Origin: Roseomonas gilardii subsp. gilardii | GTDB taxonomy: Bacteria > Pseudomonadota > Alphaproteobacteria > Acetobacterales > Acetobacteraceae | Assembly (NCBI RefSeq): GCF_023078375.1 | Contig: NZ_CP095554.1 | Span: 1,116,001-1,180,000 of the forward strand | Length of the DNA: 64,000 nt | Direction: 5' to 3' | Shown here: in pieces, positions 5,211 through 60,600 of the stretch | How the letters are laid out: every line of letters begins with the position of its first letter | Position numbering within the stretch: position 1 is the stretch's first letter | The notes under the pieces: model-generated | Databases searched by the model: none | Told to the model about the DNA's origin: nothing | The model's input: only the letters and a program-made list of their open reading frames with translations | Program-made: the position numbers and the translations under genes

Positions 5211-5524
5211 GCGCTGCTCCGGTTGATCCCCCGGGCGGAGGCGCCGCCTCCCCCGGTCCCCCTCCGCTGGGGAGATCGTATCTCCCCAGACCCCGCCTTT
5301 CGTTGGCGCCGGGTGGCCAGGTCAATCTGCCACCCGATCCCTGGGAACAGGTGGATCAACTGGGCTCCCAGAAGCAGAAAAACACCTTGCCCACGCTGGT
5401 GGCGCCCACAGTCGCCGGAGCGCCATGCGCTCCGGCCGCAGCAGGCGCCCACGAACCGGGTCCAGGGCCCGCAGGGTCCTGGTGGAGTGGGAGTTTGGGG
5501 GCGAGGCAAAGCCTTGCCCCCAAG
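5211..5524 (+). repeat. dispersed structured intergenic element, copy A
   Basis: Copy A of the ten-copy family, between two convergent genes. Strand is given as the one that reads the A-rich segment. Distal arm: outer hairpin near 5234-5255, then CTGGGGAGAT paired with ATCTCCCCAG (5267-5289). Core stem GCCGGAGCGC / GCGCTCCGGC around CAT at 5414-5436. Here one A-T pair of the usual stem is replaced by C-G, a compensatory change. Proximal arm: CCAGGGCCC / GGGTCCTGG (5462-5482), then GGGGGCGAGGC paired with GCCTTGCCCCC. It ends about 11 bp before the corrected stop of the MocR gene. Confidence 0.85.
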
Positions 5525-5534
5525 GCCGCCACCA

Positions 5535-7087
5535 TCACAGACCATTCCTTCCAAAATCAAAACCGTTCAGCACATCCCGCAGCAGCCGCACGCCCCCGTG
5601 GATGGCGGGCTCGTCGAGGCTGGCATAGCCCATCACCAGCCCTGCCATATCGTGGCGGCTGGCGGGGAGGGGGCATAGAGCGGCGTGACGGGATAGAGGC
5701 CGAGCCCCGCCGCGCGGGCCTGGGCGACGAGGGCATCCTCCGCCGCGGCCGGCACATGGGGGAGCCAGGCCACGAGATGCAGCCCGGCCTCGGCGCCCAC
5801 CACCTTCACCGCGCTGCCGAGATGGTCCGACAGGGCCGCCAGCAGGGCAGCGCGCCGCTCCCCGTTGCGGCGGCGGACACGGCGCACATGGCGCTCATAG
5901 GCGCCGCTCTCGATCATCCCGGCCAGCGCCTCCTGCTCCAGTCCGGGCGAATGCCGGTCCGTCAGCCGCTTCGCCTTGGCGAAGACCGCCGACAGCGATG
6001 CGGGAAGCACGAGATAGCCGAGGCGCAGCCCGGGCGAGAGCGTCTTGGACACCGTGCCGAGATAGATCACCCGCCCCGCCTCATCCAGCGCCTGAAGGGG
6101 TGGGATGGGGGCGATGTCGAAGCGGTACTCGCTGTCATAGTCGTCTTCGACGACATGGGCGCCCGTGCGCCGGGCCCAGGCGAGCAGTTCCCGCCGCCGC
6201 CCGGCCGGCATGACGCCGCCGAGCGGAAACTGGTGCGAGGGCGTGACATAGGCCAGGCGTGCCCCGGGCAGCGCCTCCGTCGCCATGCCGGCCCGGTCCA
6301 CGGCGGTGGGGATCACCTCCGCCCCCGCGGCCAGGAAGACCTGCCGCGCGAGGTTGTAGCCAGGGTCTTCCATGACGGCGCGGTCCCCGGGGTCGAGCAG
6401 CAGCCGCGCGCAGAGGTCCAGGCCCTGCTGCGAGCCATTCACCACCACGATCTGGTCCGGCTCGCAGCGCAGCCCCCGGGCGCGCCAGAGATAGCCCCGC
6501 AGGGCATCGCGCAGGGCCGGGGAGCCGCGCGGATCGCCATAGCGGAGGCGCCGGGGGCGGCGCAGCAGGGCCGCCACCAGCGCCCTGCGCCAGGCGAGCC
6601 GGGGAAAGTCGGCGGCGGCGAGGTCGCCATAGCGGAAATCCGCGATCATCCCCCTGTCTTCACGCGGGGGCGGCAGGTCGAATTCCTCCAGCCTCCGGCC
6701 ATAGGCCGACAGCCTTCCAGGCTGCCCGGGCGGATCGGGCGGCTCTGGTCCGGACGGCTTTGGCTCCGGCACCGTGGGCATCGGGCCGAGCCGTGGCGCG
6801 ACCCGTGCCCGTGTGCCCTGTCGGGTTTCCAGATAGCCTTCGGCGATCAACTGGTCATAGGCCGCCGTCACCGTCGTGCGCGAAACGCCCCATTCGGCGG
6901 CCAGGGCGCGGGTGGAGGGCAGGGGGGCGCCGGGGCCGAGCAGGCCCGAGGCGATCCGCTCCCTGATCGACGCGCAGATCCGCCGGGCGACTCCGTCCCG
7001 GGGCCACGCCTCCGCCGCCTTGCCTGGCAACTGGCCCTCCGTTTCCGCTGGAAACTGGATGTTCCTTCTGGGCCAGTACCGGACCAT
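5535..7087 (-). pseudogene. MocR/PdxR-family regulator (GntR helix plus aminotransferase domain), frameshifted
   Basis: A fusion regulator: winged helix at about residues 30-100 (PLPSTRALAAEWGVSRTTV) and a fold-type I aminotransferase-like domain from about 140. The PLP-binding Lys lies in VSKTLSPGLRLGY, and EDDYDSEYRF and EDPGYN are typical. Such proteins sense PLP or amino-acid adducts and often act on divergent neighbours. The frame stops early at 5633. Adding one base in the G-run at 5669-5673 restores RHDMAGLVMGYASLDEP and a normal end at 5535-5537 (about 517 residues). The divergent PaiB-like gene starts 29 bp away, so both promoters must overlap; LysE follows it. These are the natural targets. 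Confidence 0.82.
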
Positions 7088-7116
7088 GGTCCAGCCCGAT
7101 CGATGAGGCCCTGCCG

Positions 7117-7752
7117 ATGTATGTCCCGCCCGCCTTCCGCGACGATGACCTGACCGTCCTGCACGCGACGATGCGGCAGGTCCGCCTGGCCAACCTGGTC
7201 ACGGCCACGGCGGAAGGTCTGATCGCCACGCCGCTTCCGCTCTTCCTCGTGCCGGAGGAAGGTCCCCACGGCACGCTCTACGGCCATCTGGCCCGCGCGA
7301 ACCCGCAATGGAGGCTGCCGCCGGCGGGCGAGGCCATGGCCCTGTTCAACGGGCCGGACGCCTATGTCAGCCCCGCCTGGTATCCCTCCAAGCAGGAGCA
7401 TGGGAAGGTCGTGCCGACCTGGAACTACGTCGCCGTCCACGCCTATGGCCCGGCCGAGTTCTTCGAGGATGCGGGCCGCCTGCTCGACGTCGTGACGCGG
7501 CTGACCGCGCTGCACGAGGCGCCCCGCGCGGCATCGGGCGCCGGGCCCTGGGCCGTGGCCGATGCGCCGGAGGATTTCATCCGTGCCCAGCTCAAGGGGA
7601 TCGTCGGCCTGCGCCTGCCCATCACGCGCATCGACGGCAAGCGGAAGATGAGCCAGAACCGCAGCGCCGAGGACCGCGCGGGCGCCGCCGCCGGCCTCGC
7701 CGCCAGCGACCGGCCCTCCGACCGCGCCGTCGCGGCGCTGATCCCGGGCTGA
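7117..7752 (+). CDS. PaiB-family FMN-binding protein
   Basis: A 211-residue protein matching the PaiB family, with an FMN-binding split-barrel fold. Seen: the start MYVPPAFRDDD, LVTATAEGLIATPLPLFLV, the HLARANPQW block that contacts flavin in the fold, SPAWYPSKQEHGKVVPTWNY, and the C-terminal GLRLPITRIDGKRKMSQNR. In Bacillus PaiB is called a negative regulator of sporulation and protease genes; its biochemical role in proteobacteria is not settled. It is transcribed away from the MocR regulator and is followed after 13 bp by a LysE exporter, probably in one transcript. Confidence 0.88.
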   Translation: MYVPPAFRDDDLTVLHATMRQVRLANLVTATAEGLIATPLPLFLVPEEGPHGTLYGHLARANPQWRLPPAGEAMALFNGPDAYVSPAWYPSKQEHGKVVPTWNYVAVHAYGPAEFFEDAGRLLDVVTRLTALHEAPRAASGAGPWAVADAPEDFIRAQLKGIVGLRLPITRIDGKRKMSQNRSAEDRAGAAAGLAASDRPSDRAVAALIPG

Positions 7753-59112: not shown

Positions 59113-59148
59113 GACGACAGTTCCCGGGGCCGTGCCGGACACCGGCCC

Positions 59149-60129
59149 TCAGCCCATCCGCGACCGGTGGCGGAACAGGTCGGCGTCCACCATTTCCTTG
59201 ATCATCTCCTCCAGGCTGATCGCCGGCTCCCAGCCGAGCTTCTCCCTGGCCTTGGAGGGATCGCCCAGCAGCAGGTCCACCTCGGCCGGCCGCAGGAAGG
59301 CCGGATCGACCTTCACGAAATCCTCGTAGTTCAGCCCGACATGCTCGAAGGCGATCTTGCACATGTCGCGCACCGTGGTGGTGCGGCCGGTGGCGACCAC
59401 ATAGTCGTCCGGCACCTCCTGCTGCAGCATCAGGTGCATCGCCCGGACATAGTCCTTGGCATGGCCCCAGTCGCGCTTGGCGTCGAGGTTGCCCATCTTC
59501 AGCTCGGTCGCCTTGCCGAGCTTGATCCGCGCCGCCCCGTCCGTGACCTTGCGGGTGACGAACTCGATGCCGCGCAACGGGCTCTCATGGTTGAACAGGA
59601 TGCCCGAGGAGGCGTGCAGCCCGAAGCTCTCGCGGTAGTTCACCGTCATCCAGTGCGCGTAGAGCTTGGCCACCGCATAGGGGCTGCGCGGATAGAAGGG
59701 CGTCTTCTCGCTCTGGATCGGATGCTGCACCAGCCCGTACATCTCGGAGGAGGAGGCCTGGTAGAAGCGCGCCTGCGGCGCCACCAGCCGCACCGCCTCC
59801 AGGATGTTGTTCGCCCCCAGCGCCGTCACCTGCCCGGTCAGCAGCGGCTGGTTCCAGGAGGTCTTCACGAAGCTCTGCGCGCCGAGGTTGTAGACCTCGT
59901 CCGGCTTCACCTCGTTCAGCACGCGGATCAGCGAGCTGATGTCGATCAGGTTGCCGTCCATGACCCGGACCTGCCCGGCGATCCCCAGCCAGCGCAGCCG
60001 CTCGTCCACCACATCGGAGGAGGAAGAGCGCCGCACCAGCCCATAGACCTCGTAGCCCTTCTCCAGCAGCAACTGCGAGAGATAGGCGCCGTCCTGGCCC
60101 GTCACCCCGGTGATCAACGCTTTCGGCAT
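59149..60129 (-). CDS. gmd: GDP-mannose 4,6-dehydratase
   Basis: A 326-residue extended SDR enzyme converting GDP-mannose to GDP-4-keto-6-deoxy-mannose. Seen: [40 protein letters not shown] (NADP side), the catalytic block [29 protein letters not shown] with Tyr and Lys, [17 protein letters not shown] and [16 protein letters not shown]. All are exact for Gmd. First gene of the gmd-rmd operon. The product feeds rhamnose or fucose into surface glycans; the glycosyltransferases at 60.6-62.9 kb are on the same strand upstream. Confidence 0.95.
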
Positions 60130-60261
60130 GGTCCCCCGCCTCGAAACGATACAAGCCGCGCTTTAGCGGTGCCCGCCACGCTTGGCCAGATCGTTCGCTG
60201 CCCGGTTGTGGTCGCCCGGATGCAAAATCCCGCGCTTTCCCGTGACATGGGTTGCGGTGCG

Positions 60262-60600
60262 CCCCGGGTTCCGTCGCCTGGGGGCAAGGCTCCGCCTTTC
60301 CCCATGTTTTCTCCTTTGGCCCCCCATCCGCCAGGACCCCGCGGACCTCGGACCTGGTTCGTTGGCGCTTCTGCCGCCGGATCACGCCGGAGAGCCACGC
60401 TCTCCGGCGACTGCAGGCGCCAGCAGCGCGGGTAGAATATTCTTGCCCGGGAGCCCGCTGATCCGCCCGCTCCCAGGGATCGGCCCGTGGGCTGGCGGTA
60501 ACGCCAGCGCCCACTCAAGGCGGGGTCTGGGGGGATACCATCCCCCCAGCGGAGGGGGGCGGGGGAGGCGGAGCCTCAGCCCGGGGCCGGCCACGAAAGC
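60262..60600 (-). repeat. dispersed structured intergenic element, copy J
   Basis: Copy J lies between the frameshifted glycosyltransferase (its stop is 24 bp to the right) and gmd, both on the minus strand. Outer hairpin GGGGGCAAGGC / GCCTTTCCCC (60279-60304), followed by an odd T-rich insert (ATGTTTTCTCCTTTGG). Proximal arm CCAGGACCC / GGACCTCGG is degenerate (60331-60351). Core stem CGCCGGAGAGC / GCTCTCCGGCG around CAC (60385-60409). The A-rich strand is lost (GTAGAATATTCTTGCC). Distal arm CTGGGGGGAT / ATCCCCCCAG, perfect (60527-60549). Confidence 0.87.

Follow-up and report, generated by a model that had tools for sequence, protein, structure and literature searches.

A two-armed non-coding repeat at gene 3′ ends in Roseomonas and its origin-centred copy map

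A 64,000-nucleotide stretch of the Roseomonas gilardii subsp. gilardii chromosome (NZ_CP095554.1, positions 1,116,001 to 1,180,000; the window) carries ten copies of an element of ~330 bases in which two inverted arms enclose a core. The best reading of these copies, to which we give a probability of about one in two from sequence evidence, is that they belong to an interspersed, non-coding and non-autonomous element family adapted to the 3′ ends of genes, which would serve both as a gene-end cassette and as a recombination substrate. This reading builds on the architecture of the element, compensatory changes in its arms, its position downstream of stop codons, mainly where genes converge, a copy map centred on the origin, the presence or absence of copies between species, and an association with synteny breakpoints. 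Placed back to back, the two arms would act as a 3′-end cassette for the transcripts on either side, reducing read-through or shielding their 3′ ends; alternatively, the cassette may take up supercoils between those transcripts. Because of such a role copies would be tolerated or kept at gene ends, and the dispersed copies would then provide homologous sites at which inversions and translocations arise in the half of the chromosome that is rich in copies and close to the origin. If true, one repeat family ties the 3′ ends of genes to genome rearrangement and to the distance from the replication origin, three subjects usually studied apart.

Architecture and base pairing

A self-comparison of the window shows the ten copies to be its dominant dispersed non-coding repeat. 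A search with the core hairpin CGCCGGAGAGC/GCTCTCCGGCG, allowing up to 3 mismatches, returns exactly the 10 element sites, where 0 are expected (100 shuffles), six with the core on the + strand and four on the − strand. All ten copies reported in an earlier sequence-only reading of the window were located where it had placed them, and the common plan it had proposed is apparent when they are aligned in one orientation, as the parts follow the same order in each: outer hairpin A, linker, inner hairpin B, GGACC with a TTCGTTGG-like stretch, core, and inverted arm. Hairpin A adjoins the stop codon and hairpin B lies on the inner side, so that each arm of ~100 nt holds two hairpins. The core of ~130 nt is asymmetric and contains its own 10–11-bp hairpin, given above, together with an A-rich/T-rich tract that is A-rich on one strand. 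With an arm model, each of the 10 cores is flanked by two arms on opposite strands; 18 of these 20 arms reach E ≤ 1e-5, and the two weakest are 24100–24192 (E 0.0026) and 43466–43561 (E 0.0094).

Base pairing in the arms is well kept, with 98.6% of pair cells in the arm alignment being standard pairs and 58 pair cells showing double changes, compared with 19.8 (sd 6.0) in shuffles; part of this covariation signal is the difference between left-type and right-type arms. The core hairpin is nearly invariant in a 36-copy sample. In the congener G013 (the genome containing the window is G000; G003, G004, G005, G013 and G014 are congeners; C1 denotes contig 1) its consensus reads CGCCGAGGAGC/GCTCCTCGGCG and departs from the G000 hairpin at two adjacent positions of the stem, each change being matched in the pairing partner. 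The element apparently has no coding capacity. Of 94 cores, 83 could be anchored for a count of open frames; each of the six frames is open in 53 to 75 of these 83, more often than the 43% of shuffled sequence, with no frame outstanding, and spacing changes are not restricted to threes, so a coding role of the A-rich core was rejected.

Gene 3′ ends and the origin-centred map

Genes were called by our own codon-usage script and not by a standard annotator. For 71 distinct copies, mostly top-scoring ones from G000, G003, G004 and G013, genes were called on both sides; 42 of these copies are convergent, 28 tandem and 1 divergent. In 400 contiguous kb of G000, 24 cores occupy 12 of 43 convergent, 11 of 248 tandem and 1 of 42 divergent junctions, and in 400 kb of G003 the corresponding figures for 23 cores are 14 of 48, 7 of 242 and 2 of 49. 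The excess at convergent over all other junctions is significant in both (p = 4e-6 and p = 7e-8, respectively), and in these 400-kb stretches no core lies within a called gene (0/24 and 0/23). Convergent gaps have a median of ~99 bp without a copy and 355–375 bp with one. In tandem gaps the copy mostly abuts the upstream stop, with the spare room ahead of the next start.

In the window, six of the eight convergent gaps carry a copy, the other two being 28 bp and overlapping. Element 1 (5210–5543, +, core 5336–5456) lies in the gap 5192(+)/5633(−), element 2 (14859–15199, −, core 14949–15077) in 14860(+)/15221(−), and element 9 (56248–56585, −, core 56334–56461) in 56257(+)/56597(−). The remaining three convergent copies coincide with breakpoints relative to G003: element 3 (24100–24443, +, core 24223–24355), which is without its left outer hairpin and where G004 has a single outer hairpin, in 24088(+)/24456(−); element 4 (31054–31421, +, core 31200–31331) in 31041(+)/31440(−); and element 5 (36523–36869, −, core 36611–36742) in 36514(+)/36890(−). 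The window's four copies in tandem gaps are also two-armed. Element 6 (40576–40925, +, core 40708–40837) lies in 40559(+)/41075(+), where G003 has a copy at the same place. Element 7 (43278–43561, +), with a truncated core (43404–43507) and a reduced right arm, lies in 43275(+)/43730(+), and its G003 copy is fuller. Element 8 (51883–52238, +, core 52007–52139) lies in 51884(+)/52265(+), and element 10 (60258–60604, −, core 60357–60481), absent at the colinear place in G003, lies in 60129(−)/60625(−), following the stop codon of the gene at 60625. In G013 we sampled 20 places chosen for equal scores among at least 150 arm matches; 14 of the 16 with both flanks called are convergent, and in 8 of the 18 with a called right-hand gene (L271–L275, L278, L279 and L282) the conserved end of the element runs into the stop codon of that gene, at a spacing of 80–82 nt.

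Genome-wide counts were obtained with a core model (R1) built from 36 copies, the 10 of the window and 26 of 30 further loci. Searching the whole G000 genome with R1 gives 149 matches at E ≤ 1 and, with reverse-strand hairpin echoes excluded, 101 core places at E ≤ 1e-4. The further copies that had been expected outside the window are thus found elsewhere in the genome and in the genus, but the count falls short of the predicted hundreds per genome; the window itself is dense and lies 0.33–0.40 Mb from mnmG.

The copy map is centred on the mnmG-parAB origin cluster, to within 10–60 kb, in three species. The mnmG gene lies at 0.78 Mb in G000, 4.12 Mb in G003 and 4.76 Mb in G013, and in G000, the sole genome checked for them, parA and parB are its neighbours; a parS consensus gave no match in four genomes, and mnmG was used as the origin marker instead. 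The circular mean position is 0.81 Mb for the 101 cores of G000, 4.13 Mb for 45 listed of at least 56 cores in G003, and 4.70 Mb for 147 contig 1 arms among at least 150 matches in G013. Counted by quarters of distance from mnmG, near to far, cores number 62/28/9/2 in G000 and, among the matches listed, 33/9/3/0 in G003, and the arms listed for G013 follow a shallower gradient of 61/52/24/10. In sampled stretches of G000 the GC skew is positive at 2.0–2.4 Mb, ~0 at 2.6–3.0 Mb and negative from 3.25 Mb, and this fall within the copy-poor half fits a terminus opposite mnmG; samples from the copy-rich half are mixed and too weak for use as an origin marker. The dnaA gene (G000:C1:3612845–3614224) is located ~1.4 Mb from the mnmG-parAB cluster (mnmG 780437–782311).

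The gradient claim rests on the whole-genome map and not on sampled junctions, in which cores are found at 20/240 in the copy-rich and 1/140 in the copy-poor half (p = 0.0009), half of the 20 being the window's, and at 10/189 and 1/140 without the window (p = 0.03). For convergent sampled junctions the values are 12/38 and 1/16 (p = 0.08), with 6/30 in the rich half without the window (p = 0.39). A gradient centred on the origin cluster raises the question of what measures origin distance.

Turnover, rearrangement and spread

Between species, a copy is either there or missing as a whole. Colinear junctions at 1,999,123, 761,448 and 1,176,129 in G000 measure 379, 430 and 495 bp with a copy, compared with 33, 73 and 146 bp in G003 without one, and opposite G000 782,311 a core is found in G003 alone. 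Two of six short alleles, in G000 at 782,311 and in G004 at the place of element 3, keep a single outer hairpin. At seven shared positions the identity is 0.77–0.85, no better than for arbitrary G000–G003 copy pairs (mean 0.82), and positional orthologues were therefore rejected as nearest relatives. Each of three histories would account for these values: rapid divergence, conversion between copies, or a burst at about the time the species separated. Orientation is kept at 7/7 shared positions, with block inversion allowed for (p = 0.016); at an eighth, the G003 side is without a long core.

This turnover could also reflect a selfish element resembling a miniature inverted-repeat transposable element (MITE), moved by some transposase, for which 3′ ends are the sites of least harm and the origin bias a matter of target availability or copy number. 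The copies present or absent at colinear junctions and the almost identical right arms of the 20 equal-scoring G013 places favour this explanation, which we nevertheless consider somewhat unlikely. At the six aligned present/absent places (five G000/G003, one G000/G004) no clear target duplication is recognised, and flanking bases are replaced in several. The MITE-like terminal inverted repeats described in the sequence-only reading are weak at best in 37 copies: ends with up to 2 mismatches to GGCGTTGCGC occur on the left in 17/37 (20% in shuffles), on the right in 6/37 (15%) and on both sides in 4/37 (3% expected). A Y1 transposase (PF01797) is absent from 9 of the 10 genomes searched (G000, G003, G004, G012, G013, G065, G080, G094 and G096) and occurs once in G070, in a search that covered the Y1 type and no other transposase types. 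A contrast of 62 copies in the nearest quarter with 2 in the farthest is more than one would expect from copy number alone.

The copy-poor half looks colinear between G000 and G003 in the sequences compared. Six stretches at 1.99–3.48 Mb share a single, slowly drifting offset (1.015 to 0.949 Mb), which the dnaA offset of 0.953 Mb fits; copy-poor stretches L096, L097 and L100 have no match among those listed in sampled G003 sequence. In the copy-rich half, matches to sampled G003 sequence form blocks of ~1 to 58 kb with changed order and orientation. Among 236 junctions with both flanks mapped to sampled G003 there are 10 breakpoints, all in the rich half (10/191 rich and 0/44 poor junctions, p = 0.22), one further break, a 4.6-kb indel, having been set aside. 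At 8/10 breakpoints there is a core or an arm (arms counted up to E 0.01), compared with 18/181 colinear rich-half junctions (p = 1.5e-6), five of the eight having a core and three an arm, one of them weak (E 0.0017). The association holds for gaps of at least 150 bp (8/10 and 18/64, p = 0.003), for cores alone (5/10 and 15/181, p = 0.001) and without the window (core or arm at 5/6 and 13/152, p = 6e-5). In the clearest case, a 4.8-kb segment at 726.4–731.2 kb of G000 is inverted in G003; its ends carry copies in opposite orientation in G000, and one copy and one arm in G003.

A shuffled half around the origin, with colinearity kept around the terminus, would reverse the usual pattern. A chromosome-organising system might account for it, in which the density of gene-end cassettes is set by origin distance, through parABS-anchored condensation, replication dosage or supercoiling, making the origin-proximal half recombining and shuffled and the terminus half colinear; we regard this proposal as doubtful. 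As a separate observation, L009 and L018 (G000:C1 ~1,877,562 and ~1,882,908) have near-identical cores in opposite orientation ~5.3 kb apart and are a candidate invertible segment or a candidate for recent conversion.

As judged from the sequences searched, the arm is common to many Acetobacteraceae and the core is lineage-specific. With stricter filters, R1 gives at least 56 matches each in G000, G003 and G004 among 60 genomes, 36 weaker matches in G013, two in G005 and one in G014, and none at E ≤ 0.001 in 9 other congeners and all 45 non-genus genomes. The exact core-hairpin pattern occurs in 76 stretches of a species-genome collection, from which records near the window's genome may be omitted; 52 are in Roseomonas mucosa ATCC BAA-692. 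The other 24 come from scattered taxa (6 Clostridia or Oscillospiraceae, one uncultured Rhodospirillales) and are taken as chance matches, since the core profile matches at most partly around the hairpin and no arm is present. No phage match was found and the single plasmid match is in Roseomonas sp. OT10, so phage and plasmid origins were rejected.

The arm model (R2), built from 37 of 122 extracted arms, detects arms in 20/60 Acetobacteraceae genomes, representing 19/59 genera including its own, five of the 20 with a single match each (E 1e-4 to 8e-4); in a 142-genome class-wide sample (stricter filters, E ≤ 1e-4) arms occur in the window's genome only (1/142). Two inverted arms surround other cores at L258, L266, L267 and L262, one L262 arm being weak (E 0.006), and L258 and L266 lie between converging genes. 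At a further 20 arm places from the matches listed (16 in G096, 3 in G080, 1 in G065) the contexts are 7 ++, 7 −−, 5 +− and 1 −+. At 31 arm places, 30 in other genera and one (L260) in a congener, the core profile of G000 has no match, which indicates that the arm is widely shared and the core is not. Individual loci vary: at L262 (G018), in a tandem gap, the arms enclose an AT-rich stretch and not a GC-rich core; L289–L304 (G096, another genus) show several arm types in mixed pairs, with the outer hairpin sometimes repeated two or three times; and L257 (G080) is a single arm between same-strand genes, presumably gap and pgk as judged by reading alone, after one stop and before the next start.

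The absence of a recognisable G000 core at those 31 arm-bearing places weighs against a site for supercoiling or chromosome organisation like a bacterial interspersed mosaic element (BIME) of the BIME-2 type. At such a site, for which the need would be greatest close to the origin, gyrase or another topological protein might act on the paired hairpins where converging genes bring positive supercoils together. Convergent placement and a gradient on both sides of the origin in three species would suit such a site, as would the description of BIME-2 elements as gyrase sites (PMC6379681); we judge it quite improbable. That two converging genes each simply have a terminator hairpin of their own, and that these look alike by chance, is hardly credible: the arms face the 3′ end of each gene and read inward as hairpin B, then GGACC and a modestly T-rich stretch, but the common ~130-nt core at 101 places already disfavours this, the tandem-gap copies of the window are two-armed as well, and copies come and go as a unit.

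Weighing the gene-end reading and comparison with known systems

Several results weigh against a gene-end cassette that doubles as a recombination substrate. Extra pair types in the arms are not above shuffles (269/500 shuffles reach the count). In arm hairpins, with the strand read outward from the core, there are 128 G.T and 23 A.C mismatch cells (four arm hairpin classes, 86–93 parsed hairpins per class, 27/210 arms unparsed), indicating that what the adjacent gene first transcribes is the less well paired of the two RNAs; because many G.T cells are one shared variant, this asymmetry is a lead and not a test. Core orientation in G000 tandem gaps is unbiased (10 and 10), and 31/43 convergent junctions in G000 and 34/48 in G003 have no copy, so the element is no general requirement. 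Terminator-like sites are not enriched at 24–44 kb of the window (5 compared with 5.1 expected), and two of these five lie inside elements, in the cores, and none at an arm. For the breakpoints, the association weakens for cores alone without the window (2/6 and 10/152, p = 0.07), for convergent junctions alone (5/5 breakpoints and 9/16 colinear, p = 0.12) and for these without the window (2/2 and 7/13, p = 0.49). The G003 side shows a core or arm at 4/10 breakpoints only, four of the 10 breakpoints come from the window, and some G003 pieces were chosen because window segments mapped there.

The earlier interpretation stands as far as a repeated, structured, apparently non-coding family without an Rfam match is concerned; its MITE-type terminal repeats and hundreds of copies lack support in the form given. 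No match to Rfam 15 was found, either for the whole window at gathering scores or for loci L001, L258 and L281 up to E 0.1. Siting at 3′ ends, the origin gradient, the breakpoint association and the existence of a broader family in Acetobacteraceae, with common arms and differing cores, go beyond that interpretation. Title searches of the literature, including Roseomonas with repeats or inversion, returned no title on the element.

The element behaves like repetitive extragenic palindromic (REP) and BIME sequences in that inverted palindromic units around a spacer lie between genes with a 3′ bias. REP and BIME sequences are bound by DNA gyrase, Pol I or IHF. The part of a REP survey that deals with placement (PMC3733652) describes high-copy intergenic palindromes, often dimers, located mostly between convergent or same-direction genes near 3′ ends, so the placement found here is not new in kind. 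The units differ, being ~100-nt two-hairpin arms around a conserved ~130-nt core, and by inspection of the arm consensus A3 hairpin B is flanked by GGTCC and GGCGGA and not by GTAG or CGTC. With no such tag, and with the Y1 transposase absent from the core-bearing genomes searched, REP/RAYT membership was rejected and the element is not filed as a REP. The same survey, in the part covering CGTC repeats, reports these missing in Acetobacteraceae, and its main text contains no occurrence of Roseomonas or of inversion (PMC3733652); a repeat family can now be given for this bacterial family.

Intrinsic bidirectional terminators between converging genes likewise place hairpins close behind both stop codons; here, by reading of the arm consensus, no U run directly follows the arm hairpins, and the copies form a dispersed family with a common core. 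The bacterial MITEs RUP, NEMIS and ERIC, as treated in part of the REP survey (PMC3733652), are similar in size, lack of coding capacity, strong folding and presence or absence between relatives. In contrast to MITEs, of which Correia is a further bacterial example, the present element shows a strong origin gradient, and no sound terminal repeats or target duplications were found in the 37 copies and six aligned places compared. Among interspersed palindromic elements it is unusual in its size, its arm-core-arm build, its lineage-specific core and its origin-centred map.

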